From contig NZ_LT907982.1 of NCBI RefSeq assembly GCF_900230215.1, positions 4,387,568-4,451,567 on the forward strand: 64,000 bases of DNA. The letters run 5' to 3'. A program made the translations under genes and the position numbers. This stretch comes from Jatrophihabitans sp. GAS493 (GTDB taxonomy: Bacteria; Actinomycetota; Actinomycetes; Mycobacteriales; Jatrophihabitantaceae). This document shows, one piece after another, positions 26,135 through 46,838 of this stretch. The notes under the pieces were generated by a model that saw only the letters and a program-made list of their open reading frames with translations, did no database searches and was not told the origin of the DNA. The number at the start of each line of letters is the position of its first letter. The first letter of the stretch is position 1.

Positions 26135-28834
26135 ATGGATAGCCCCTTGGTCGAGACCAAGCTCCACATTCCGCAGTCGAGGCCGACGACAGTGCCTCGG
26201 CCCCACCTGCTGGAGCGATTGAGTCACGGCGCCGAGTCGCGGCTGATCCTGATCTCGGCTCCCGCGGGCTTCGGAAAGACGACACTCCTCGCCGAATGGA
26301 TGACCGACCGCACTGATCTCCGCGTGGCCTGGGTATCGCTCGAGGCGAATGACCAGCACGAGCCTGAGTTCTGGTCCTACGTCGTCACCGCCCTTCACCG
26401 CGCGGTCCCAGTGGTGGGTTCTACATCGCTTGCCCTACTGAAGTCAGGCGCATCGCTCGAGGCCGTCCTCACCACGCTGGTCAATGAACTCAGCACGGCA
26501 CCGGAGCAGATCATCCTGGTCCTCGACGACTACCACCTCGTCGATGGGCCGGATCTCCAAGTCGGCATGGCATTTCTGCTTGATCATCTCCCGGCCCAGG
26601 CGCACCTGGTGATCAGCTCCCGGGCCGATCCGGCGCTGCCGCTGGCTCGCCTCCGGGCCCGCGGTGAGCTGCTGGAGGTACGGGCGGCCGACCTGCGCTT
26701 CACCCTCGACGAGGTATCGGCATACCTCAACGAGATCATCGGACTCGACCTCTCCGCAGATGCGATAGCGACGCTGGAAGGGCGGACCGAAGGGTGGATC
26801 GCTGCCCTCCAACTGGCGGCCATCTCACTACAGGGACGAAGCGATGTCACGGATTTCATCGCTGGATTCGCCGGCGACGATCGCTTCGTGGTCGACTACC
26901 TCGCCGAGGAGGTACTGGAACGTCAACCCGATCAGGTACGAGCCTTTCTCCTCCAGACGTCGATTCTGGACCGGCTGAACGGCTCGCTCTGCGACGCCGT
27001 CACCGGCCGGTCGGGTGGCAAGGTGATGCTGGAGGCGCTGGACCACGCGAACCTCTTCGTCATCGGACTCGACGACAACCGTCGCTGGTACCGCTACCAC
27101 CACCTCTTCGCCGATGTCCTGCACGCGTACCTGCTGGACGAGCATGCGGCCGAGGTGGCCGAACTGCACAGCCGAGCCAGCCGTTGGTATGCCGAGAATG
27201 ATCAACAATCTCTAGCGATTCGCCACGCCGTGGCCGCCGGTGACGTCGACCGCGCCGCGGCGCTGATCGAGTTGGCGCTACCGGCGCTTCGCCGTGACCG
27301 GCATGAGTCGACGGTCCTGAGCTGGCTCGACGACATTCCCGACGACGTGGTGCGTCTGCGCCCAGTGCTGGCGGTCGGCTTTATCGGCGCGTTGATGGCC
27401 GGCAACCAGTTCGACGACATTGACCGCAGGCTGCAGGAGGTCGAGGAATGCCTGCAGACGCCACCGGCGGGAACGGTCGTGGTTGATCAAGCCGAACTGG
27501 TCCGGCTTCCGGGAGCCATCGAGACCTTTCGGGCCGCGCTATCGCTCGGAAGGGGCGATCCGATCGCCACCGTCCGTCACGCGCGTCTGGGCATCGAGCG
27601 GGCGGCCGACGGCGACCACCTCATTCGGGCCGCGGCATCGGGCATTCTCGGACTCGCGCTCTGGAGCGGCGGCGACCTGGAGGGCGCACACCAGGCCTAC
27701 TCCGTCTGCGTCGAAGGTCTGCAGCGAGCCGGGCACATCTCCGATATCTTCGGCTGCTCCATCACGCTGGCCGACATTCGCCTCACTCAGGGTCGGCTCG
27801 GCGACGCGCAGCGCAGCTACGAATGGGCGCTGCAGTTGTCGCCTCCCGGCGGCGGATCCGTTCTCCGCGGAACGGCCGACATGTACGTCGGGCTGAGCCA
27901 GATTGCCGTCGAGCGTGATGATCTGCCCGCCGCCGCCGCCCAGCTAGCCCGAGCTGAGGAGCTGGGCGAGCAGGGTGGACTGCCTCAGAACGCGTATCGC
28001 TTTCGGGCCGCGCTGGCTCGTCTGCGTCACGCCGAAGGCGACCTCGCCGGTGCGCTAACGCTGCTCGAAGCGGCTGAGCGCGTCTACGTCGGAGACTTCT
28101 CCCCCAATGTGCGACCGCTCGCGGCCTCGAAGGCGCGCGTCCTGGCGGAGCTCGGGAGAGTCGACGAAGCCCACACCTGGGCTCGCGAGCACGCAGTCAC
28201 AGCTGGGGACGATCTCGCGTACGCGCGCGAATTCGAGCACATCACCCTGGCTCGCGTGCTGCTGAGCCCGTCCCCGTGGCAGTCTCCGCAGCAGCGGCCA
28301 GCGGCAGACGAAGCCGTCGCTCTACTCGACCGTCTCGCCGAAGAGGCCGCCACTGGCGGGCGAACCGGCAACCTCATCGAGATCCGTGTACTGCAGGCCA
28401 TCGCCCACCAGGCCATGCAGGATCTACCCACTGCTCTCCTACGTCTGGAGCAGGCGCTTTCGCTGGCCGAACCGGAGGGATACGTACGCGTCTTCGCCGA
28501 CGAGGGGGCGTCGATGACTCTGCTTCTGAAGGCGATCGCAAAGCGGCGCCCTCACGCCGGTTATGTCCGTCGACTCCTCGAATCTCACGCTGGGGGTGTC
28601 CCCGCCAAACTGTCGAGCACCCTCGTGGATCCACTGAGCGACCGCGAACTCGACATCCTCCGTCTCCTCACGAGCGACCTCACCGGCCCCGACATAGCCC
28701 GTCACCTCAGCATTTCGCTCAACACCGTCCGAACGCACACCAGGAACATCTTCACCAAACTCGGGGTGACCAGCCGCCGAGCCGCAGTACGACGGGCGTC
28801 TGAGCTCGGCCTGCTGTCGCGCCACCCAACGTAG
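26135..28834 (+). CDS. LAL-type LuxR regulator (MalT-like, STAND ATPase)
   Basis: The 899-aa protein has the MalT/LAL layout. It starts VETKLHIPQSRP; Walker A is APAGFGKTT (residues 42-50); Walker B is IILVLDDYHLVD (about 126-137). A TPR-like helical region fills about residues 340-820, and a C-terminal LuxR helix-turn-helix reads LSDRELDILRLLTSDL and LSISLNTVRTHTRNIFTKLGV. LAL proteins are large ATP-dependent activators switched by a ligand bound to the helical region. Downstream on the same strand, after a palindromic site, are a small unknown gene and a DUF4386 gene, its probable targets. Confidence 0.93.
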   Translation: MDSPLVETKLHIPQSRPTTVPRPHLLERLSHGAESRLILISAPAGFGKTTLLAEWMTDRTDLRVAWVSLEANDQHEPEFWSYVVTALHRAVPVVGSTSLALLKSGASLEAVLTTLVNELSTAPEQIILVLDDYHLVDGPDLQVGMAFLLDHLPAQAHLVISSRADPALPLARLRARGELLEVRAADLRFTLDEVSAYLNEIIGLDLSADAIATLEGRTEGWIAALQLAAISLQGRSDVTDFIAGFAGDDRFVVDYLAEEVLERQPDQVRAFLLQTSILDRLNGSLCDAVTGRSGGKVMLEALDHANLFVIGLDDNRRWYRYHHLFADVLHAYLLDEHAAEVAELHSRASRWYAENDQQSLAIRHAVAAGDVDRAAALIELALPALRRDRHESTVLSWLDDIPDDVVRLRPVLAVGFIGALMAGNQFDDIDRRLQEVEECLQTPPAGTVVVDQAELVRLPGAIETFRAALSLGRGDPIATVRHARLGIERAADGDHLIRAAASGILGLALWSGGDLEGAHQAYSVCVEGLQRAGHISDIFGCSITLADIRLTQGRLGDAQRSYEWALQLSPPGGGSVLRGTADMYVGLSQIAVERDDLPAAAAQLARAEELGEQGGLPQNAYRFRAALARLRHAEGDLAGALTLLEAAERVYVGDFSPNVRPLAASKARVLAELGRVDEAHTWAREHAVTAGDDLAYAREFEHITLARVLLSPSPWQSPQQRPAADEAVALLDRLAEEAATGGRTGNLIEIRVLQAIAHQAMQDLPTALLRLEQALSLAEPEGYVRVFADEGASMTLLLKAIAKRRPHAGYVRRLLESHAGGVPAKLSSTLVDPLSDRELDILRLLTSDLTGPDIARHLSISLNTVRTHTRNIFTKLGVTSRRAAVRRASELGLLSRHPT

Positions 28835-28873
28835 GCGTCGCGGCGGTCTGGAATAGCAGAATAGCTACGGAAA

Positions 28874-28902
28874 TCACCAGATGTGGTGAGGACCGCTCAC
28901 CA
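28874..28902. promoter_or_regulatory. Overlapping inverted repeats, probable LAL operator
   Basis: Three half-sites alternate: TCACCA (28874-28879), TGGTGAG (28884-28890) and CTCACCA (28896-28902). The last two form a perfect 7-bp inverted repeat around GACCG, and the first two a 6-bp one. They lie 22 bases before the 105-aa gene and 40 bases after the LAL gene, as expected for an activator or repressor site. Confidence 0.65.
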
Positions 28903-28924
28903 TCTTTGCTCCTAGCTTTCAGTC

Positions 28925-29242
28925 ATGAGCGAGACATCTGATGCAACCGGCACCAGCAGCGGCACCGGCAGCGATGGCGGGCAGTACGACATCCACCTCC
29001 GAGGCCATCTCGACTCCCGCTGGAGCGCGTGGTTCGACGGGCTGACGCTGACCCAGTTGCCTGACGGCAGCACGGTCATCCAGGCGGACCTACCCGACCA
29101 GGCGGCCCTGCACGGCCTGCTTCGACGGGTCAACGACCTCGGTGTGCCGCTCATCGCAGTGACTCGGGCTCAGACCGGCAATTCAAGCCCAGCAACCACC
29201 ACAAGCCCAGCAACCACCACAACAAAAAGGAGCACCCGATGA
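28925..29242 (+). CDS. Small conserved-looking protein next to the LAL regulator
   Basis: The 105-aa protein has a low-complexity Ser/Thr/Gly start, then a compact region YDIHLRGHLDSRWSAWFDGL through LTQLPDGSTVIQADLPDQAALHGLLRRV and LGVPLIAV (about residues 20-80), and a Ser/Pro/Thr tail. I recall the WxAWFDGLTL and DQAALHGLLxxVxDLGxPL patterns from small actinobacterial proteins encoded beside LuxR regulators and DUF4386 genes; their function is unknown. It overlaps the next gene by ATGA, so the two are coupled. Part of its tail is encoded by an 18-bp duplication. Confidence 0.8.
   Translation: MSETSDATGTSSGTGSDGGQYDIHLRGHLDSRWSAWFDGLTLTQLPDGSTVIQADLPDQAALHGLLRRVNDLGVPLIAVTRAQTGNSSPATTTSPATTTTKRSTR
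29185..29220. repeat. 18-bp tandem duplication in the tail of the 105-aa gene
   Basis: AAGCCCAGCAACCACCAC occurs twice in a row (29185-29202, 29203-29220), giving the repeated Ser-Pro-Ala-Thr-Thr-Thr tail. Confidence 0.9.
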
Positions 29243-30036
29243 CAAGCACCACGACCCTCCGGCCTGTCGGCCGGCTACGACGCATGTCCAGCCTGCGCAG
29301 AATCTCGTTGGCCGGCGGACTGCTCTACTTGATCACCTTCATCGCCTCGCTGCCGGCGTTGAAGCTCTATGCCGACGTCGTCAACCAGAATGATTACATC
29401 AGCACGGCTGGCAGTAACACGCCGCTGCTGTGGGGCGCCTGGCTGGAGATCATCACCGCGATCGCCGGCATCGGAACCGCTGTCGTGCTCTACCCGGTCA
29501 CCAAACGGGTTAGCGCGACCGCGGCGATCGGATTTGTGACCTCCCGAGTGGTCGAGGCGGCCCTCATCGGTGTCGGAGTGGTCAGCCTGCTGGCCATCGT
29601 CACGCTGCGACACGAGTTCGCCGCGTCCACGGGAGCGCAGCGAGATGCGCTTGAGGTAACGGGTCGGGCGTTGGTCGCCGTGCGGCAGTGGACCTTCCTG
29701 GTCGGGCCGGGCCTCATCGCCGGTGTGAACGGTCTCTTCCTCGGCTACGTCATGTACCGCTCGCGCCTCGTCCCGCGGATCATCCCGACGATCGGACTCA
29801 TCGGCGCGCCGCTCATCCTCGTCTCCGCTACCGCGACCATCTTCGGAGTCTGGGATCAGCTCTCCGTGGCCGGGGCAGTGTTCGGCTTCCCAGTCGCCGC
29901 TTGGGAGCTCAGCTTGGGAATGTGGCTGACTTTCAAGGGATTCCGGCCGACGACGCTAACCCTCGACACCGTGGTTGCGCCGGACACGTTCGGCTCGGTC
30001 ATCGACTCCGCTCCCGAGGCGATAGCCATCGGTTGA
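29239..30036 (+). CDS. DUF4386-family membrane protein
   Basis: The 265-aa protein starts by ATGA overlap. Its features match DUF4386: SLAGGLLYLITFIASLPAL near residue 20, WGAWLEIITAIAGIGTAVVLYPV near residue 65, SRVVEAALIGVGVVSLLAIV near 95, and FLVGPGLIAGVNGLFLGYVMYRSRLVPRII near 145. There are about six membrane segments. Function is unknown; in actinobacteria such genes commonly sit beside LAL regulators, as here. It is likely co-regulated through the palindromes upstream of the 105-aa gene. Confidence 0.87.
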   Translation: MTSTTTLRPVGRLRRMSSLRRISLAGGLLYLITFIASLPALKLYADVVNQNDYISTAGSNTPLLWGAWLEIITAIAGIGTAVVLYPVTKRVSATAAIGFVTSRVVEAALIGVGVVSLLAIVTLRHEFAASTGAQRDALEVTGRALVAVRQWTFLVGPGLIAGVNGLFLGYVMYRSRLVPRIIPTIGLIGAPLILVSATATIFGVWDQLSVAGAVFGFPVAAWELSLGMWLTFKGFRPTTLTLDTVVAPDTFGSVIDSAPEAIAIG

Positions 30037-30109: not shown

Positions 30110-30835
30110 ATGTCAAAACCAACGATTGTCCTCGTCCACGGAGCATGGGCGGACGGGTCCAGCTGGAACGCCGTCGCCTCAGAACTGCAGAGCCAGGGAT
30201 TCACGGTTCTCACCCCGCCGAACCTGCTGCGCGGTGCCTCTGACGCCGACTACATCTCCTCGTTCCTGGCTCAGCGAACGAGCGGTCCAGTCGTACTCGT
30301 CGGCCACTCCTACGGTGGTTTCGTGATCACCAACGCCGCCGCCGGCGGCGGTGACGTGAAGGCCCTGGTCTTCGTCGACGCCTTCATCCCCGAGGTCGGC
30401 GAGATCGTCTTCCAGATCCTCGGTGGCTCCGGATCGGCGTTGGACGTCCCGGATCCAACGGCTGTCCTCGACGTCGTCGGCTACCCGGGCGGCCCGGAGG
30501 GTGACGCCGAGGCGTTCCTCAAGCCGGAGACCGTGCACAACTCCTTTGCCCAGGACCTACCGGAGGCTGACCGCTGGCTGATCGTGCAGAGCCAGCGGCC
30601 GATCACGCTGAGCGCCAATACGACACCGTCGGCCACCGCAGCCTGGAAGACGCTGCCCAGCTGGGCCGTCGTCGGCACCGAGGACAAGGTGATCCCGCCG
30701 GCCACCCAGCGCAGCATGGCCGAGCGGGCCGGCGCGACGATCACCGAGGTCGCCGGATCGCACGTCTCGATGGTCTCGCACCCGCAGGCAACAATCGACG
30801 CCATCCTGGCCGCGGTGGCCGCGACCAGCGACTAG
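30110..30835 (+). CDS. Alpha/beta hydrolase
   Basis: The 241-aa protein follows AGGAGCCAG. It has the oxyanion motif VLVHGAWADGSSW, the nucleophile elbow GHSYGGFV (Ser near residue 68), an acidic residue in AVVGTEDKVIPP near 190, and the catalytic His in VAGSHVSMVSHP near 222. It resembles the salicylate-esterase-like/EstC group of soluble hydrolases that have the HGAWxDGSxW start. It is cytoplasmic, with no signal peptide. Substrate unknown. Confidence 0.9.
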   Translation: MSKPTIVLVHGAWADGSSWNAVASELQSQGFTVLTPPNLLRGASDADYISSFLAQRTSGPVVLVGHSYGGFVITNAAAGGGDVKALVFVDAFIPEVGEIVFQILGGSGSALDVPDPTAVLDVVGYPGGPEGDAEAFLKPETVHNSFAQDLPEADRWLIVQSQRPITLSANTTPSATAAWKTLPSWAVVGTEDKVIPPATQRSMAERAGATITEVAGSHVSMVSHPQATIDAILAAVAATSD

Positions 30836-30889: not shown

Positions 30890-31315
30890 AGGAGGACTTC
30901 GCGGCCAGAACGTCATGCAGAATGTTGATCCTTCGCTGCAGATAGCGCGTCTGCGACGCAAACCACGCCGGTGCCCAGAACCAGGTGGTGAAGATACCGA
31001 CGCGGGTCGGGGAACCGACCAGGCTATGCGCGGAGTTCACTCGCTTCGCGGTACGGGCCAACCCAATCAACCGTAAATCGGGACTAGCTGCGACCACCAC
31101 TGGCCATCGGCCGGCACCTCGGCTCGCAGCACCGCCCCGAGTTCTTTGTTGATCCGCGAGTACCACACGCAGTAGTAGATACCGAACGTGTTGATGGCCA
31201 ACCACCAGAGGCCCCACGCTCCCTGTTTGCGAACGGTCGCCGCGCTTGCCCCCGCGCTTTGCTGAGCTCCAGCCGACGCAGCGAACGGCGGGGCAGCAAA
31301 GTTTCTAACCTTCGG
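30888..31315 (-). pseudogene. DUF4234-like small membrane protein, frameshifted and lacking a start
   Basis: On the minus strand one frame reads RKQGAWGLWWLAINTFGIYY then WYSRINKELGAVLRAEVPAD and ends VPIYG-stop at about 31069. The next frame continues LIGLARTAKRVNSAHSLVG and WFWAPAWFASQTRYLQRRIN to the stop at 30888. Together these give the DUF4234 pattern (W-aliphatic-GIY-x-WY-x-RIN then a second W-rich helix). A single missing base at about 31070/31071 explains the break. Upstream the first frame is closed by a TGA at 31316-31318 and has no ATG or GTG before the conserved part, so the start is also lost or unusual. It follows the TIG gene on the same strand. Confidence 0.65.
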
Positions 31316-34205
31316 TCAGACGAGCGCTCACGAGAGTCGGCCCGGCCGCGTTTATCAGGGCCGTGACGTCGCCACAATGCATGAACGGTTTCAGCGTTGC
31401 CTTGCCGGTCAACCCGGCCGCTTCAGCCCCGTGCAACGTCAGTGCCGCCGGCGCGGCGGACTGACAAGTCTGCGGGTTCGATAGCAACGGCAAGATTCCG
31501 AGCAGCCGCAGTGACGTGATGGTCGCGGAGACCGGTGCGCTCACTGACCACACGCCACCCGTGACGTTGCCGGTGGGAGCGCCGATGCCGAGTTTGGCGC
31601 TACCGGTGAGTGGAATGAAGCCGAAGAGTGAGTAGCTGAAATTGAATGACGCCGAAGTGGCGGATCCACTGACGCTGCCAGCACCCGTGGTCTTGAGAAT
31701 CGTCACGGCGGTGGGCAACGAAGTTGACTGACCGCCCAGCCCAACCGTGACCCGAACGGCGAACGTGTGTAGGCCGGCCGTCGGCGTGGGAGTCGGTGTC
31801 GGTGTCGGTGTCGGCGTCGGTGTCGGCGTCGGTGTCGGTGTCGGCGTGGGTGTCGGTGTCGGCGTGGGTGTCGGTGTCGGCGTGGGTGTCGGTGTCGGTG
31901 TCGGCGTGGGTGTCGGTGTGGGAGTTCCACCGCAGCCCGGGGTCAGCCCCGTGTCGATAACACTGATCGCATCGACCAACGGCCCGCGAATACCCGGCGT
32001 GGTGCTGGCCAACGTCAGCCGCGAAGGGCCCGGGGTGCAGACGGTCGTCGCCACCGATTCGGCGGTCCAGGCGAGCGCGCCACTACTGGTGCGCGCCGCC
32101 GTCACCGAGAAGGGGCTCGTCTGGCCGCCGAAGTCGACATCCATCGTCTTCACCAGCGGATCGCCGTTGGGATTGCCGGCCAACTCGAATCGCACCAAGT
32201 ACGTATGGCCGATCTGAGTGGTGATGTCCTGGTACAGCGAGGTCTGCGTGGTGTCGGTGTTGTCATTTCCTTCCAGGTCGAGGAACTGCGTCCCCTCAGC
32301 CGCCGCATCAGCGCTCGGGCCGACGACGTCCACGCTGCTGCCGTCGTTCATGTGCCAGTTCAGGCCGAGTTCGGCGACATCGACCGCGTCGACGGTCTGG
32401 AAGGAGCTGACCTGCAGCGCGGTCGGCGGCTCGAAGCCGCCGCCGGAGACCAGCGTGCCGGCCGGCAGCGTCACCGGCCCGATGGGGCCAGCGGCATAGG
32501 TGTAGCGATCAGCCGGCACCGTCAGCGAGCGGCCGGTGGGATTGACGGCGGTGACATCGACGGTGCCACTGCCACCAGGAGCGGTGACGGTGCACTGGGT
32601 CGTCGAACAGGAACCCGACGTTGCGGCGGTGGCGCCGAAATCGACCTCGGTCACGTCGGCGAGCCCGAATCCGGTGATCGTCACGATCGTCTTGCCGGCG
32701 GCTGGCCCGCTCTGCGGGCTCACGGTGCTCACGACCGGGACGGCAGCCACGAAGGTGAAGCGATCCGCGCTGCTGGCGACCGAGGTGCCGGCCCCGGTGG
32801 TGACAGTGACGTCGACGGCTCCGCTACCACCCGGCGAGGTGGCGGTGCAGGAGGTCGCGCTACAGGTGAAGGAGTCGGCCGGCGTGCCACCGAAGGACAC
32901 GGCGGTGGCGCCGCTGAAGTTGGTCCCGCTGATCGTCACCGCGGTACCGCCGCCGGCCGGTCCAGTGGCCGGACTGACGCCGGTTACCGCCGGCGGCGTG
33001 GCGCTGAGAATCGCGGAGTATCCGGCGATGTCATCGGCAACAGTGGCCGGAAGGGCTGACATCACCCGCGGCAGCAGTGGCCCGCTGTTGGCCGCCGGAT
33101 CGACTTGCAGCGCTTCGCCGGCGACCTGGGCGATGGTGTCGTCCGAGGCGCCGATCTTCTTCAGATAGGCCGCGACCCCTGGGTCGATTCCGGAATCGGC
33201 CACCGCGTCCTGCGCGTCGGAGAGCTGGGCGGCGGTGAGGGCGGGGTTGAAGCCGGCGTGTTGCAGCGCGGCGATGGCCGCCGCCCGCTTCGCCGCGTCC
33301 TGCTTCAGCAGCTCGACGATGGCATCGATGTCAGCGTTGGCCGCATCCAACTGCTTGACCCGCCAGCTCTCGACGCCCGCATCGGCCGCCCCGCTGGCCC
33401 GGTCGATCGACATGCTGAACGCGTTGGTGTATCCGAGCTCCGCGCCGAGCAGCGAGAGGTAGGCGTTGACGGCCGCCACGTCGGCCGGGTCGGTCATGGC
33501 CCCACCGACGGCGAGCTGTCCGACGTCGACCGCCGCGGTCGATGGAAGCTCCGTGTAGTTGGGATCAGGGGGGTCGGCGCTGACGTTGCCCCATTGCGCC
33601 GCCATGATCCCGGCTGAGCCGCCGAGCACGCCGTAGAGCAGTCCAACGCTCACCGCACCCGCGAGACCGCCCGAGCCGACGAGGATGATTCCGGCTGCAG
33701 CGACTGCCGCGGCGATCGTGAGTACACCGGTGATCGTCCAGAATTCATTGGAGATTTTCGCGGCGGCGGCCTTCTGGTCCGGGGTCAGCTGCGGCGTCTT
33801 GGGCGGGGCGATGACCGCGAAGACCAACGTCGGCGAGTTGACGACCGTGTTTCCCAGCCCGTCACTGGACCACTCGACGTAGGCGCTGTAGGTCCCGGAG
33901 GCGGTGACCGGAACGTGGAACACCGCGGTGTGATTCGAGGTGCCGGCCGGGTAGTCGGCCTGCCCCAACGGGTTCCCGGGTCCGTCAATATGCAGGATCG
34001 CCTCGGCGAAGCTCTTCGGAGGCGTGAAGTGAGCGGACGCCACAATGGTGACCTCGATGCCGTGTCCGCCGGCCTGGGCGAAGGGGCCATTCACAATTGG
34101 CTTCTTCGGATCGATGACCAATCCGGCCGCGCTGCTCACCGACACTCCGCTGAGCACGATTGCGGTCGCGAGACCGAGAACGAGTGCTGTCGACTTGAAC
34201 GCCAC
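31305..34205 (-). CDS. Large secreted TIG/DUF642-like protein with a Thr-Pro linker
   Basis: From the GTG at 34205 (after GGAGGTCCA) the protein is 966 aa. A signal peptide (VAFKSTALVLGLATAIVLSG...SSAAG) indicates secretion. Rough order: a beta-rich domain to about 130; a hydrophobic Gly/Ala-rich stretch at about 155-205; a helical region to about 400; two IPT/TIG domains (VTGVSPATGPAGGGTAVTIS and VSTVSPQSGPAAGKTIVTIT); a DUF642/choice-of-anchor-like domain from LVSGGGFEPPTALQ; an uninterrupted Thr-Pro tract of about 24 units; and a C-terminal beta domain. Such proteins bind surfaces or polysaccharides. It is divergent from the RCC1-repeat gene. Confidence 0.8.
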   Translation of the reverse strand: MAFKSTALVLGLATAIVLSGVSVSSAAGLVIDPKKPIVNGPFAQAGGHGIEVTIVASAHFTPPKSFAEAILHIDGPGNPLGQADYPAGTSNHTAVFHVPVTASGTYSAYVEWSSDGLGNTVVNSPTLVFAVIAPPKTPQLTPDQKAAAAKISNEFWTITGVLTIAAAVAAAGIILVGSGGLAGAVSVGLLYGVLGGSAGIMAAQWGNVSADPPDPNYTELPSTAAVDVGQLAVGGAMTDPADVAAVNAYLSLLGAELGYTNAFSMSIDRASGAADAGVESWRVKQLDAANADIDAIVELLKQDAAKRAAAIAALQHAGFNPALTAAQLSDAQDAVADSGIDPGVAAYLKKIGASDDTIAQVAGEALQVDPAANSGPLLPRVMSALPATVADDIAGYSAILSATPPAVTGVSPATGPAGGGTAVTISGTNFSGATAVSFGGTPADSFTCSATSCTATSPGGSGAVDVTVTTGAGTSVASSADRFTFVAAVPVVSTVSPQSGPAAGKTIVTITGFGLADVTEVDFGATAATSGSCSTTQCTVTAPGGSGTVDVTAVNPTGRSLTVPADRYTYAAGPIGPVTLPAGTLVSGGGFEPPTALQVSSFQTVDAVDVAELGLNWHMNDGSSVDVVGPSADAAAEGTQFLDLEGNDNTDTTQTSLYQDITTQIGHTYLVRFELAGNPNGDPLVKTMDVDFGGQTSPFSVTAARTSSGALAWTAESVATTVCTPGPSRLTLASTTPGIRGPLVDAISVIDTGLTPGCGGTPTPTPTPTPTPTPTPTPTPTPTPTPTPTPTPTPTPTPTPTPTPTPTPTAGLHTFAVRVTVGLGGQSTSLPTAVTILKTTGAGSVSGSATSASFNFSYSLFGFIPLTGSAKLGIGAPTGNVTGGVWSVSAPVSATITSLRLLGILPLLSNPQTCQSAAPAALTLHGAEAAGLTGKATLKPFMHCGDVTALINAAGPTLVSARLTEG
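31780..31925. repeat. Hexanucleotide repeat encoding (Thr-Pro)n
   Basis: About 24 units of GTCGGT/GTCGGC/GTGGGT (plus strand) give a pure Thr-Pro tract on the minus strand. This is a flexible, extended linker or glycosylation target, and a likely site of length variation by slippage. Confidence 0.9.
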
Positions 34206-34507
34206 TGGACCTCCAGCAGTAGCTAGTTCCGAGATCTGAAGCAGGTACGAGGCGCGAACGACGGTGGTTCGCCTCGCGTTCTTGAACGGATGCAGGCGAT
34301 CTGGGGGCACGACAGCCGATCAGATAATAGCGAGCCTGGCGGCCGCTGTGAAGAGCCGTAGCGCCGGTCGCCGGGCAATGCCCCGCAAGGAGGTCAGTTG
34401 CGCTCAACTCTTGGACGAAGCCGCCGATGGGTCGTTAAAGACTGGAATGTCCAGACGCGGACCGAAATAGGGGCAGTGATGGCACCGGCGACGACCTGCA
34501 GGTTCTT
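34206..34507. promoter_or_regulatory. 302-base divergent intergenic region with a leader hairpin
   Basis: The region separates the two large secreted-protein genes. On the minus strand, close to the TIG gene, arms at 34247-34259 and 34267-34279 (GAGGC/GAAC pairing with GTTC/GCCTC, one bulge) form a hairpin in the probable leader. I compared the rest with c-di-GMP and c-di-AMP riboswitch patterns and found no match. No other gene is supported. Confidence 0.4.
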
Positions 34508-36880
34508 GTGGGAACGCGCCTGCGCCTAACCGGCGGCGATGAAGTAGGTCGTCATAGCTTCAGCCGTCCACGCCCCAATCGCCTGGGAGTACTGCGCGGT
34601 AGCCCGCTCGTCGCTGCGTCTCGCGCGATGGCTGCACTCGCTCTGCTGCTGCCGTTCTTGGTCGCCTCGACCTTCGCCAGCTGGACGGCGTCCAACTCGA
34701 GTCCCACCAACACACTCGCCACCGGCAGCTGGCTGCTCTCCAGTTGGGGGACGTCGAATCTCGGCCAGACCGGTCTAGTCAGCGTCAACTCCGGGTCCAA
34801 TTCGACGATCCCGATCGCGCTCCCCGGCCCTGAGACCTGGGCCTCGATCTCGACCGGCCATCAGGACACGTGCGCAATCACCGATGCCCAGGCGCTCTAC
34901 TGCTGGGGTTACAACGGCCTCGGCCAGCTCGGAGACGGCACCGTCGGCGACGAATTCGATCCCGAGCTGATCGCCGGGTCGTGGTCGAGCATCTCGGCCG
35001 GCTACGACGGAACCTGCGGCATCAAGACCGACCAGACGCTCTGGTGCTGGGGTTACAACGTGCACGGCAGTGTGGGCGACTCGACCACGGCCGACAAGCA
35101 CGCCCCGACGGCGGCGACGGTGAGCGGCACGACGACCTGGCTGAGCGTGTCGGTGGGGCAGTACTTCGCGTGTGGGCTAAAGACCGACCACACCCTCTGG
35201 TGCTGGGGCAACAACGGCAACGGGGAACTCGGGATCGGCTCGACGACGGACGCCACCCTTCCGACGCAGGTCGGCGCCACCACCTGGTCGGCGGTCGGAA
35301 CCGGCTATGACCACGCCTGCGCGGTGAAGAGCTCGGACAGTTCGCTCTGGTGTTGGGGTTACAACGCCCAGGGGCAACTCGGCGATGCCAGCACCACGCA
35401 GCGCACCAGCCCGGTGGCGGTGGCCGGCGGCGGCACCTGGACCGCGGTCTCCGGTGGAATCCTGCACACCTGCGCTACCCGGGTCAGCGGGGCCATGTAC
35501 TGCTGGGGCTACAACGCCTACGGCCAGGTCGGTGACGGAACGACGACGACGCCCCGCTCCTCCCCAACCCTGGTGACGACTTCCGGAGTCACCACCTGGT
35601 CGACGGTCACGTTGGGGCAGAACACCTCCTGTGGGCTGAAGACCGACAACACTCTCTGGTGCTGGGGCCACAACGACCTCGGGATGCTCGGCAACGGCAA
35701 CACAACTGACCAACCGACGCCGGTCTCTCCCGGGACCAGCACTTACAACACGATCTCCGGCGGGTTCCAGCACGTCTGCGGAATCCGGAGCGGCGGGACG
35801 ATCTGGTGCCAGGGTTATGACGGCTACGGCATCGCCGGACAGACCAAGGATTATGGGGTATTTGCTCCCTCCCAGCTGCCGCTGACCGCATCGGCCTGGG
35901 CGTCGGGGGCGCAAGCCACCACCGACGGGTGCGGGGTCAAGTCCGACGGGACGATCTGGTGCTGGGGCAACAACGCCTACGGTCAAGACGGTGACTCCAC
36001 CGTCACGGTGAACCTCGCCCCGGACCGGGCCGGCAGCGGCACGAACTGGAGCACGGTGTCGATGGGCCACTACACGACCTGCGGCCTGACCACAGCCGGC
36101 AGCAACAACCTCTTGTGCTGGGGTTACGGCGGCTCAAACCAGTTCGGCACTGGAAGTACCACCGACCAGCACGCCCCCACCGCCGGCCCCGCTGGTTCGT
36201 GGTCCTCGGTCAGCGTCGGTGATACCCATACGTGCGCGATCAACACCGCACACTCCCTGTATTGCTGGGGCACCAACGACCAGGGACAGGTCGGCAATGG
36301 CACCACCACCCTCGCCACCACCCCGGTGGCGATCACCGCCTCCGGAGTAAGCGGCTGGGCCTCGGTCTCGGCCGGCGTGGCGAACACCTGTGCCATCAGT
36401 ACCGCGGCGAGCACCAACAGCAGTGCCCTCTACTGCTGGGGGTACAACGGACACGGCCAGGACGGAAAGGGCGGCGCAGCCGGCTCTCCAGCCAACTACC
36501 AGTCCCCGCAACTTCTCTCCACCGGATGGCAGAGTGTCGGCGTCGGGTTCTACAACACCTGCGCAGTGAAGACGACCGGGACGCTCTGGTGCTTTGGATA
36601 CAACAATGACGGTCAACTCGGCAATGGATCATCCGGCGCCGACGTCACGTCGCCGGCTCAGATCGGAGCCGTCACAACGTGGAGTACCGCCGCCTCCGGA
36701 GACGGCTTCTCCTGTGCCACCCGAACCGACCGGACCCTCTGGTGCTGGGGCACCGACACCAGCGGCCAGCTCGGAGACCGTAACAAGATGCAGCAGAACA
36801 GCCCGCAGCTCGTGCCGAACGTCAAGTTCAGCTACCTCGACGGGCACGGCAACGTCGACGGCATGATCGCCTGGGGCTGA
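34508..36880 (+). CDS. Secreted RCC1-repeat beta-propeller protein
   Basis: The 790-aa protein (GTG start; an exact start is uncertain) has a hydrophobic export segment MAALALLLPFLVAS followed by FASWTASNSSPTNTLATGSW, which resembles the N-terminus of SipW-processed TasA-like proteins. About 13 RCC1-type repeats follow, each with a Cys in TCGIK/TCAI and a second in LWCWGYNxxGQLGDG; these Cys pairs probably form one disulfide per blade. The whole would fold as one or two seven-bladed propellers outside the cell. Function is unknown; binding or adhesion is a guess. It ends just before a chemoreceptor gene on the other strand. Confidence 0.82.
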   Translation: MGTRLRLTGGDEVGRHSFSRPRPNRLGVLRGSPLVAASRAMAALALLLPFLVASTFASWTASNSSPTNTLATGSWLLSSWGTSNLGQTGLVSVNSGSNSTIPIALPGPETWASISTGHQDTCAITDAQALYCWGYNGLGQLGDGTVGDEFDPELIAGSWSSISAGYDGTCGIKTDQTLWCWGYNVHGSVGDSTTADKHAPTAATVSGTTTWLSVSVGQYFACGLKTDHTLWCWGNNGNGELGIGSTTDATLPTQVGATTWSAVGTGYDHACAVKSSDSSLWCWGYNAQGQLGDASTTQRTSPVAVAGGGTWTAVSGGILHTCATRVSGAMYCWGYNAYGQVGDGTTTTPRSSPTLVTTSGVTTWSTVTLGQNTSCGLKTDNTLWCWGHNDLGMLGNGNTTDQPTPVSPGTSTYNTISGGFQHVCGIRSGGTIWCQGYDGYGIAGQTKDYGVFAPSQLPLTASAWASGAQATTDGCGVKSDGTIWCWGNNAYGQDGDSTVTVNLAPDRAGSGTNWSTVSMGHYTTCGLTTAGSNNLLCWGYGGSNQFGTGSTTDQHAPTAGPAGSWSSVSVGDTHTCAINTAHSLYCWGTNDQGQVGNGTTTLATTPVAITASGVSGWASVSAGVANTCAISTAASTNSSALYCWGYNGHGQDGKGGAAGSPANYQSPQLLSTGWQSVGVGFYNTCAVKTTGTLWCFGYNNDGQLGNGSSGADVTSPAQIGAVTTWSTAASGDGFSCATRTDRTLWCWGTDTSGQLGDRNKMQQNSPQLVPNVKFSYLDGHGNVDGMIAWG

Positions 36881-44388: not shown

Positions 44389-44393
44389 AACGG

Positions 44394-46838
44394 CTACGAT
44401 TCGAGCAATCCGCACGCGGTCGCGACTCGCAACGCCTCCGACCGACTGGAGACGCCGAGCTTGCGATAGATCGAAATGGCCTGACTTTTCACCGTGTTGG
44501 GCGAGACGAAGAGGCGCTGCGAAATCTCACGGAAGGTCAGGTGCGTCGGCAGGTAGGCCAAGACGCGAAGTTCCGCCGTGGAGAGTGTCATGGTGCCGGC
44601 GATGGTGTCCGTGGTTCTGGCCCGCAGTTCGCTGTCCAATCCGCCGAGACGCTGGTTGAGCGTGCCCAGGTCTGGCCGGCGACGCTGGATCTCCTGCGCG
44701 TCCTTCACCACGGTCCTGGCGCCGGCGAGATCCCCCAGCGCCTGATGAACCCGGGCCATGACGATCCGGGCCTGAACACCCAGCCAGGGCAGCGTGATGG
44801 TCGAGTCGGAGCGCAGCACGTGCGCGTGGGCCAGCGCTTCCCGGGAGCGTCGCGGATCGCCATTGTGGATCCCGAGTTCTGCCACCAGCGCGAAGGTCAG
44901 GATCTGGCTCGCGTCGTCGGAGATCTGAGCCGACAGCGCCGTGGCCCGGGCGAGCGCAGCGTGTTCAGCCGCCTCATCCCACTCGCCCGCTTCGGTGGCC
45001 AGCAGCCCCAGTTCGGCCTGGGCAACGCAGACCGACGGGGCGCGGTCACTGCCCGCTCCATCGATTACCTGCTCGAAGCCGTCGCGGGCCTCCGCCGTTC
45101 GCCCGGCTAGCAGCAGAGCAATGGACCTGCTCACCAGCGCGCCGCTGTACCACGGACTCGCCGCCGATTCGGCCATCAGGCAGTCGGTCGCGTCCGTCAG
45201 CATCTGGTTGACACCATGCGGCGCCAGCAGAGCCCGAGCGAAGGAGATCATCGACGAGAACGAGGCGGCATCCCCCGGCATCGGACCGTCGAACTTCACC
45301 TGCTCCGCGCGCTGCAACCAGCTGACGGCAGCCGGATCGCCGAGGAAGGCGAGGGTCACCGCGGTGTACACCGCGAGCGGCGGATAGGCCCGGATCGCGT
45401 CGTCATCGAAGGCCTCCAGCAATCGGACAACGCTGTGTATCCGCCCGCGAGCGATGTACGGCGCAACCAGATCACAGACGAGTTCACCGGCGACGGAGGT
45501 TGCCCCAGCGGCGTGGGCATGCTCGATCGCCTCCTCGACCCGTCCGTGCTGCTGCAGCCAGCAAGCCGCGCGCAGATGCAGCGATGGGAGCTCGTCGGGC
45601 TCGCGGCGGGCAAGTTCGGCCAGCAAGGCGTGCCGGAAGGGCGCGTGATATCGATACGACCTAGTCGCGGCATCGATCGGCACCACGAAGCGATTGCCGG
45701 TTGCCAGCTGCGCCAGAACGGCAGCGCTGTCAGACGTGCCGACGACGGCATCGCAGAGCGCCGGTGACGGCCGCTCCAGGATCGCCGACCGGGTGAGAAA
45801 CCGGACCCGGGAATCCGGCAGCCCGGCCAGGATCTCTTCGCGCACGTAGTCGGTGACCAACTCATCGGCCGCGCCGAGCGAACCGGCGGCGATCGCGCGG
45901 TCGGATCGCTTGCGCAGGGCGAGGGCGGCGAGGTAGAGCCCGGCCGGCCACCCCTCGGCCCAATCGTTGAGGCCGCTCGCCACATCCGCAGAGACGTTCA
46001 GACCAGCGTTACGCAGTAGCAGCAACGCCTCGGCATCGTCCATCGCAAGTTCGGGCACCCCGAGCTCCACGAGCCGCCCGGCGACCCGGGGCCGGGCCAG
46101 CGGGATGGGGGGCATGGCTCGGGCCGAGATCACGAGCTGGGCGTTGAGCGGCAACTGCAGAGCCATCATCGCCAGGATGTCGGTGGCCACCGGATCGCGG
46201 AGCAGGTGCGCGTCATCCAGGACGAGGGCGAACGAGGTCTCACTCGCTTCGACCGACCGCAGGAACGCGCGCACGTTGGTGGCCGGCAGGCCCGAGCCGG
46301 CGGAGCTCATTCGCCGATTCAGGGTGCCGCCCAACTCCAGGGCGTTGTCGACGGCGAAGGCAATGTCGGCGAGCAGGACGGCCGCATCGTTGTCCGTCTC
46401 GTCCAGGCAGATCCAGGCAATCCGGCGTTGTTGGCGCGCTGCCCACGCGGCGAGCAGCGTCGTCTTCCCGTCGCCCGGCGGCGCAATGACGGTCGCAATT
46501 GAGGATTCCGAGGTCGTGAGATGGGCGATCAGCCGTTCGCGGATGATGACATGCGCACCGACCGGGGGAACCACGAACTTCCGCTGCGCTGGCGGGTTGG
46601 GGCGATCTCCGAACCGGCGCTGCCAGTCGTGTCGGCTCTGCCGTGACGGCGCGGGGAGAGCACCGGCAGCACCGGCATCCCCGAGCGGCAACCCCTTGCT
46701 CGTCTCAAGCGTCGTCACCGACGGGATAGAGGCCAACGGGGTAGAGGCCGACGGGGTAGAGGCCAACGGGGTAGAGGCCGCAAGGAGGCCGAGGTCCGCG
46801 TCGAGGCCAGCGTCTGGCACATTTTTCAACGCTGTCAC
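44394..46838 (-). CDS. LAL-type LuxR regulator (second, 814 aa)
   Basis: The 814-aa protein has a low-complexity N-terminal tail, partly encoded by a 15-bp tandem repeat (ASTPL/ASTPS units, residues 21-40). It is followed by a STAND ATPase with Walker A APPGDGKTT (residues 119-127) and Walker B LVLDDAHLL (about 208-216). A helical repeat region and a LuxR helix-turn-helix complete it (LSTAELRVLAYLPTHL, then LFVSPNTVKSQAISIYRKLGVSSR). It is shorter than the first LAL. Two copies of the 17-bp palindrome flank the gene (44372 and 47463), making it a candidate regulator of the surrounding group. Confidence 0.92.
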   Translation of the reverse strand: MTALKNVPDAGLDADLGLLAASTPLASTPSASTPLASIPSVTTLETSKGLPLGDAGAAGALPAPSRQSRHDWQRRFGDRPNPPAQRKFVVPPVGAHVIIRERLIAHLTTSESSIATVIAPPGDGKTTLLAAWAARQQRRIAWICLDETDNDAAVLLADIAFAVDNALELGGTLNRRMSSAGSGLPATNVRAFLRSVEASETSFALVLDDAHLLRDPVATDILAMMALQLPLNAQLVISARAMPPIPLARPRVAGRLVELGVPELAMDDAEALLLLRNAGLNVSADVASGLNDWAEGWPAGLYLAALALRKRSDRAIAAGSLGAADELVTDYVREEILAGLPDSRVRFLTRSAILERPSPALCDAVVGTSDSAAVLAQLATGNRFVVPIDAATRSYRYHAPFRHALLAELARREPDELPSLHLRAACWLQQHGRVEEAIEHAHAAGATSVAGELVCDLVAPYIARGRIHSVVRLLEAFDDDAIRAYPPLAVYTAVTLAFLGDPAAVSWLQRAEQVKFDGPMPGDAASFSSMISFARALLAPHGVNQMLTDATDCLMAESAASPWYSGALVSRSIALLLAGRTAEARDGFEQVIDGAGSDRAPSVCVAQAELGLLATEAGEWDEAAEHAALARATALSAQISDDASQILTFALVAELGIHNGDPRRSREALAHAHVLRSDSTITLPWLGVQARIVMARVHQALGDLAGARTVVKDAQEIQRRRPDLGTLNQRLGGLDSELRARTTDTIAGTMTLSTAELRVLAYLPTHLTFREISQRLFVSPNTVKSQAISIYRKLGVSSRSEALRVATACGLLES
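46726..46785. repeat. 15-bp tandem repeat in the LAL N-terminus
   Basis: Four units of about GTAGAGGCCRACGGG (46726-46740, 46741-46755, 46756-46770, 46771-46785) encode the Ala-Ser-Thr-Pro-Leu/Ser repeats. The unit keeps the frame. Confidence 0.85.

Follow-up and report, generated by a model that had tools for sequence, protein, structure and literature searches.

LAL (MalT-like) regulators are abundant in actinobacteria, and few of them have a known operator. One of the closest described systems is MalT of Actinoplanes sp. SE50/110 (ACSP50_3915), identified as an activator by deletion and overexpression transcriptomes; the available part of that report gives the motif TCATCC-5 nt-GGATGA, its 3' end located 34.4 ± 1.0 nt from the transcription start, and 17 such starts spread over a region of 51 genes (PMC7567727). 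The same text quotes the E. coli MalT box, GGGGA(T/G)GAGG, at about -35, and four MalT sites are described in the pulAp-like malPp800 promoter, again in the part of the source at hand (PMC10427625). A third system, SCO6993 of Streptomyces coelicolor, is a LAL of 606 aa described as a negative regulator with footprints on palindromic promoter sequences, for which, in the sections of the paper available, its authors state that no consensus could be predicted (PMC9628970).

Here, we analyzed a stretch of 64,000 nucleotides from Jatrophihabitans sp. GAS493 (hereafter, the window), in which three TCACCA or TGGTGA half-sites, numbered H1 to H3 and accompanied in many relatives by a fourth, H0, sit in the 90-bp gap between the stop codon of a LAL gene and the ATG of a gene for a 105-aa protein. 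Like Actinoplanes MalT, this locus pairs an actinomycete MalT-like LuxR-family ATP-binding regulator with a hexamer inverted repeat lying over the -35 region, and the 3' end of H2 is 36 nt before a start that is predicted here (28925), compared with the 34.4 ± 1.0 nt of Actinoplanes (PMC7567727, available part). Unlike that system, with its N5 spacing and 17 start sites (PMC7567727), the element found here has N4 spacing, TCACCA/TGGTGA half-sites and two additional ones at fixed distances, H3 and H0; most genomes carry it once, and its target would be a 105-aa/DUF4386 or MMPL operon. With E. coli MalT the locus shares a STAND ATPase with a TPR sensor and a LuxR-type HTH, multi-site arrays and a site at about -35 (available parts of PMC7567727 and PMC10427625). 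In contrast to E. coli MalT, it has another core hexamer and a half-site inside the -35/-10 spacer, and no maltose genes were found among the neighbours examined at the locus; the half-site TGATGA of some relatives, termed Gln-type below, comes close to the MalT GGATGA. As with SCO6993, a LAL regulator and palindromic promoter sequences occur together, the site here coming from sequence comparison, but the footprinted sequences differ, as does protein length (606 aa versus 899 aa here), as far as the accessible text of PMC9628970 goes.

As a MalT-type site, the element is of a known kind, and what is new is a half-site of its own, the N4 spacing, a conserved half-site in the spacer, the layout and the specificity. 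The open-access literature searched held no text in which LuxR and DUF4386 appear together, no matching operator among the matches listed for TGGTGA or TCACCA with LuxR, and no published function for the 105-aa/DUF4386 target operon. For one LAL clade, this would supply a putative operator, complete with its half-site, spacing, associated promoter and target operon, that is conserved between classes of the phylum.

Results

An array of half-sites precedes the 105-aa gene

Read directly, window positions 28874-28902 comprise TCACCA, GATG, TGGTGA, GGACCGC and TCACCA. The initial annotation had described this segment as two overlapping inverted repeats, TCACCA-N4-TGGTGA and TGGTGAG-N5-CTCACCA, next to a LAL regulator, a 105-aa gene and a DUF4386 gene. 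Both sequences are present as claimed, and a domain search agreed with the neighbours named. The reading as two palindromes has to be corrected. The G that extends TGGTGA to TGGTGAG varies between sites, column 17 being T in 15, G in 6 and A in 2 of the 23 aligned. The element is instead one core palindrome, H1/H2, accompanied at fixed spacing by the same-type half-site H3 and often by H0. Similarly, the half-sites were placed exactly, but the span was drawn too narrowly, as conservation begins about 12 bp further upstream and extends through a -10 hexamer (Table 1). Relative to the predicted start, H1 would lie at about -51 to -46, H2 at -41 to -36 and H3 at -28 to -23.

Table 1 Positions of the LAL gene, the half-site array, the predicted promoter and the proposed target operon in the window.
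Feature	Position	Strand	Remarks
LAL / MalT-like regulator, 899 aa	26135..28834	+	Open reading frame; Pfam AAA_16, TPR_MalT and GerE above cut-off
Codons of HTH stretch SLNTVRTHTR (aa 861-870)	28715..28744	+	Last residue, R870 here, covaries with the operator
H0, optional half-site place	28862..28867	+	Degenerate in the window (TAGCTA); exact TCACCA in 30/61 sites, at least 5/6 letters in 41/61
H1, half-site TCACCA	28874..28879	+	Direct reading; exact in 46/61 sites
H2, half-site TGGTGA, inverted partner of H1	28884..28889	+	Direct reading; exact in 49/61 sites
H3, half-site TCACCA, between the -35 position and -10	28897..28902	+	Exact in 46/61 sites, at least 5/6 letters in 57/61
Predicted -10 hexamer TAGCTT, 10 bp after H3	28913..28918	+	A41 and T45 conserved
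Predicted start of a leaderless mRNA, first letter of the 105-aa ATG	28925..28925	+	Inferred, 7 nt after -10
105-aa gene, first of the proposed target operon	28925..29242	+	Open reading frame
DUF4386 membrane-protein gene, second of the proposed operon	29239..30036	+	4-base overlap with the 105-aa gene

Allowing at most one mismatch, TCACCA-N4-TGGTGA matched twice in the window versus 0.10 expected (sd 0.30; 0 of 100 shuffles reached 2). The looser pattern TCAYCA-N4-TGRTGA, with up to two mismatches, was not enriched there (8 versus 5.3 expected; 10 of 100 shuffles reached 8). A scan of the 4.88-Mb genome, a single contig, gave 2 exact matches for the two-half-site pattern and a single exact place for the three-half-site pattern TCACCA-N4-TGGTGA-N7-TCACCA, the next best carrying 3 mismatches.

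We also considered a regulon within the same genome and rejected it. The second exact two-half-site match falls within the 3' end of a LuxR-type open reading frame, and a covariance model returned no second site: beyond the known site read from the opposite strand (E 0.07), its next match had an E value of 0.59. With up to two mismatches, TCACCA-N4-TGGTGA occurs 282 times per strand genome-wide versus 88 for a reversed control, an excess for which codon usage may account in part or in full and which we do not read as a regulon.

The element is conserved with the 105-aa gene

The three-half-site pattern was found in 15 of 397 related genomes, once in each, while its reversed control was found in none of the 397, and all 15 sites adjoin a relative of the 105-aa gene. 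When 101 genomes were searched with the 105-aa protein, 24 matched. In each of the 14 genomes with a best match of E <= 1e-18, the element stands upstream of the gene, H3 being altered in three; among the other 10, one (G043) has the element and nine are without the exact pattern. The relatives at these loci include Actinomycetospora (five loci) and Geodermatophilus obscurus.

We then built a sequence-only covariance model from 23 sites; searched against 394 class genomes, it matched 41 at E <= 0.01. At E <= 1e-7 there were 22 genomes, the window's included, followed by a gap in the scores. Outside the window genome this amounts to 24 strong sites in 21 class genomes, 23 of them adjoining a 105-aa relative and the remaining one (L097) a LAL. 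Among the weaker sites inspected, two lie beside an element-type LAL (L101 in G437 and L105 in G666) and six do not. A phylum-wide run yielded 10 of 396 genomes at E <= 1e-5, including 6 of other classes with 7 sites; all 7 adjoin a LAL and 6 adjoin a 105-aa relative. Hence, all 31 strong sites outside the training sample (24 in the class, 7 in other classes) adjoin a LAL, a 105-aa relative or both, these genome and site counts not being independent, as relatives share ancestry. Most genomes carry one site; G444 has three, and G415 and G775 have two each.

By the criterion of the initial annotation, half-sites that were not conserved at orthologous loci would have refuted its operator reading. 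At these loci, however, the half-sites and their spacings are retained both within the class and in further classes of the phylum, and the reading is supported. Judged by these comparisons, the repeats are a real, conserved element and not a product of chance.

At G043 (contig C27, 4404-4903), the element stands beside only an N-terminal LAL fragment, and the 105-aa gene was matched in two frames; the best LAL match in that genome reaches 318 bits. The locus looks like a decaying copy, or one affected by sequence errors.

The half-sites are joined to a predicted promoter with a -10 hexamer

Column counts were taken from a gap-free alignment of 23 non-redundant sites (A2), from which L046 (Geodermatophilus obscurus) and L041 were left out as duplicates of G283 and G022, together with L044, a LAL and DUF4386 fragment without 105-aa gene and element. 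H1 reads TCACCA in 23/23 sites, and the letters of H2 are invariant or present in 22/23. In H3, C28 and A29 occur in 23/23 and the other letters in 20-23. Downstream, column 41 is A and column 45 is T in all 23, with conservation dropping on either side. A41 and T45 are also kept in 61/61 sites overall; because the -10 formed part of the matrix by which some of those sites were picked, the unbiased count is 15/15, for sites found by the half-site pattern alone.

In contrast to the -10, a TTGACA-like -35 (at least 4/6 letters) at 16-18 bp was present in only 6/61 sites, with 4.1 expected by shuffling. With no -35 enrichment over the 61 sites, this is not a sigma-70-type promoter with both hexamers. 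In 18/61 sites an ATG lies 5-8 nt past the -10, the others having longer leaders, and in 30/61 a CAT is placed so that its A comes 7 or 8 nt past the -10; on these distances we predict that transcription in the window starts at the A of the ATG. The site overlaps the -35 region, as a MalT-type site does, when positions are counted from this start predicted from the -10. Its core half-site is not the MalT-type GGA(T/G)GA: TGGTGA occupies H2 in 49/61 sites, and GGATGA is absent from the H2 sequences compared with LAL HTHs. At two paralogue loci (L166 and L167), where the sites score near background with the matrix and were placed by eye, H0-H1/H2 and the -10 are kept and H3 is lost.

The element keeps to the 105-aa gene rather than to the LAL gene. 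At L121 the LAL lies downstream and convergent, and at L118 and L119 it is separated from the element by an MFS gene of opposite orientation. LAL and element are on separate contigs in G403, and at L069 a DUF4389 gene lies between the element and the 105-aa gene; gene calls in this comparison come in part from a crude codon-usage script and not from a gene finder. From these arrangements, the element is assigned to the 105-aa promoter and not to the end of the LAL gene. Taken as a whole, it is a predicted promoter-operator consisting of H1-H2-H3, often with H0 12 bp upstream, and a -10 at a fixed distance, without a -35.

Element-bearing genomes share one type of LAL

The window LAL has the MalT-type architecture, with an N-terminal ATPase, a MalT-type TPR and a C-terminal LuxR HTH recognized at Pfam cut-offs. 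It is not a MalT equivalog, as NCBIfam MalT is its best match with 403 bits against a cut-off of 537. A LAL scoring at least 430 bits to that of the window was present in 40/41 genomes with the element and in 2/39 without it (G013 and G064), the 39 element-free genomes in this 80-genome comparison being hand-picked and not random. HTHs adjacent to the element share an SLNTxRTHTK-type stretch, from which most other LALs examined differ (for example NTVKTH).

Eight LAL relatives have no element in the adjoining stretch, some of these stretches ending at contig ends. The window contains a second LAL, at 44391-46598 on the minus strand, whose HTH reads PNTVKSQ versus LNTVRTHT in the element-linked clade, and no element was found in the stretch around it with 3-kb flanks. 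A plasmid search with the LAL returned 10 records, none actinobacterial by name.

HTH and half-sites change together in two lineages

The SLNTVRTHTR stretch is, we assume, the recognition helix of the LuxR-type HTH, and its last residue (HTH column 25; R870 in the window) is presumably equivalent to the base-contacting lysine of NarL. We paired 57 LALs with their sites, leaving out four (G043, L082, L128 and L130) whose HTH was missing or incomplete. Column 25 is Lys or Arg in most LALs and Gln in 3/57. In the sites of the three Gln-type LALs, H2 reads TGATGA and both H0 and H3 read TCATCA; H1 is TCATCA in two of them and TCAGCA in L129. The other 54 have G at that H2 position in 53 cases and A in one (L091, an Arg-type LAL with TGATGA at H2 alone). 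Gln with adenine and Lys/Arg with guanine are the classical amino acid-base preferences. T at the fourth position of H3 also occurs in 6/57 loci without Gln.

The Gln-type LALs do not form one clade. On a tree built without the HTH columns, from which L070 was left out as a duplicate of L017, they require 2 changes, and their monophyly was rejected (AU p 0.003, with the group picked on inspection of an initial FastTree). A sign test on the covariation has only 2 independent pairs, too few to reach significance. In an unbiased column scan, the top pair was HTH column 28 with the fifth position of H1, and the Lys-Gln column came second; clade effects probably account for the former pair and for the scores of columns 29 and 32. 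Further Gln-type LALs were sought in the orders of G775 and G444, which comprise 3 and 8 genomes, and among relatives of G539, where no new strong site appeared.

A second change was seen at column 20, where three LALs carry Phe (NTFRTHTR; L100, L166 and L168). They correspond to the 3/61 sites with arms TCACAT/ATGTGA. This group also requires 2 changes on the tree, but its independence is uncertain because L125 is placed with poor support.

In sum of the Gln cases, recognition-helix changes from Lys/Arg to Gln coincide, on the sequences compared, with a change from TCACCA to TCATCA in two lineages. Given this covariation and the linkage of the element to one LAL clade, the LAL is very probably the protein that binds it. 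Such natural specificity switches make the binding code of LuxR-type HTHs directly testable.

Discussion

The best explanation of the comparison, which showed conserved sites of constant spacing, their linkage with a single LAL clade and HTH/half-site covariation, is that the array is the operator of a LAL-activated promoter driving the 105-aa/DUF4386 operon, to which we give a probability of about 0.78. Our model suggests that the LAL, a MalT-like STAND protein, would first be switched on by a signal, and that several subunits would then occupy the H0-H1-H2-H3 array through their LuxR-type HTH domains. The H1/H2 palindrome would stand in place of the missing -35 and recruit RNA polymerase to the -10 TAGCTT, and transcription of the operon would begin, in the window genome probably exactly at the ATG. 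We infer binding, activation rather than repression, an oligomer on four half-sites and the start site. Activation by a LAL oligomer is proposed because the anatomy fits MalT, with the end of H2 near -35 and several sites per promoter; as a counterpoint, activators do not usually bind in the -35/-10 spacer, where H3 is situated. Since most genomes have a single target, this would be a convenient small system in which to find the signal of an uncharacterised STAND regulator.

A more elaborate version of this proposal is tentative and, in our view, rather unlikely. Here, the locus would be a self-contained switch, in which a LAL oligomer on the four half-sites, one of them (H3) inside the -35/-10 spacer, could hold the promoter either shut or open and is joined by the 105-aa protein as a putative feedback partner and by membrane proteins (DUF4386, MMPL or DUF4389) as the output. 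Inhibitory proteins act as feedback partners of E. coli MalT. The 105-aa protein is the steadiest companion of element-linked LALs, and the idea of a partner draws support from its family also adjoining element-free LALs of other clades, at 8 loci.

We think it improbable that the same LAL uses the same operator for repression, either by occupying H2/H3 and blocking the -35/-10 spacer or by switching between repression at H2/H3 and activation at H0/H1/H2. The strong retention of H3 (at least 5/6 letters in 57/61 sites) between the -35 position and the -10, a classic place for a repressor, would agree with this, and a LuxR-type LAL repressor, SCO6993, is reported in the available part of PMC9628970. 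However, the -35 expected of a promoter worth repressing is missing (6/61 sites), H1/H2 lie at the position of the MalT activator (PMC7567727, available part), and L166 and L167 keep H0-H1/H2 and the -10 without H3.

We consider it very improbable that an unlinked regulator binds the element and that the LAL merely adjoins it. Linkage alone cannot identify the binder, and in G043 the element persists with a LAL fragment only, the best LAL elsewhere in that genome reaching 318 bits. Against this, HTH and operator covary in separate lineages, the element-type LAL is found in 40/41 element genomes versus 2/39 others, and the 105-aa gene of G043 looks frameshifted, as in a decaying locus. Least credible is a role as RNA structure, in which the LAL gene would have its terminator here or TGGTGAG/CTCACCA would form a leader hairpin. 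When the 90-nt spacer is folded both arms can pair, but folding is no better than in shuffles (z -0.85; 38/200 at least as good), and no intrinsic or terminator-like site (GC-rich hairpin with a T run) lies there on the plus strand. The element is also upstream of the predicted start, it accompanies the 105-aa gene even at loci that have no LAL end ahead of it (L118, L119 and L121), and changes in H0 and H3 accompany those in the arms.

The putative target of LAL activation leads into membrane proteins. Downstream of the element these are DUF4386 in many loci and MMPL in four (L131, L120, L070 and L118); L069 has DUF4389, and five other loci carry a family of proteins about 220-230 aa long. 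This last family is membrane-protein-like and recorded at seven loci in all, and five members were scanned without a Pfam match; on one branch of the LAL tree its gene comes directly after the element, with the 105-aa relative, where found, coming next.

The 105-aa protein itself had no Pfam or NCBIfam match. It is predicted to adopt a beta-alpha-beta-beta-alpha-beta, ferredoxin-like fold in a structure model with a mean pLDDT of 79.0 and a pTM of 0.56, and fold matches were weak (best E 0.015). Its family accompanies LALs more widely than the operator does: a distant relative, for example, lies just upstream of another LAL, without the element, in the same genome (G000:C1:2027649-2027885).

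Downstream of the DUF4386 gene, an alpha/beta hydrolase is encoded at 30110-30835. Compared with the copies in G001, the hydrolase is 96% identical (residues 1-220; L010), DUF4386 83%, the 105-aa protein 56% and the LAL 64-69%, and the higher identity of the hydrolase suggests recent transfer or strong constraint. Further along the window are an open reading frame of 1001 aa with a long Thr-Pro repeat (31305-34310, minus strand) and one of 790 aa (34508-36880, plus strand) with repeated WCWG-type motifs that look RCC1-like.
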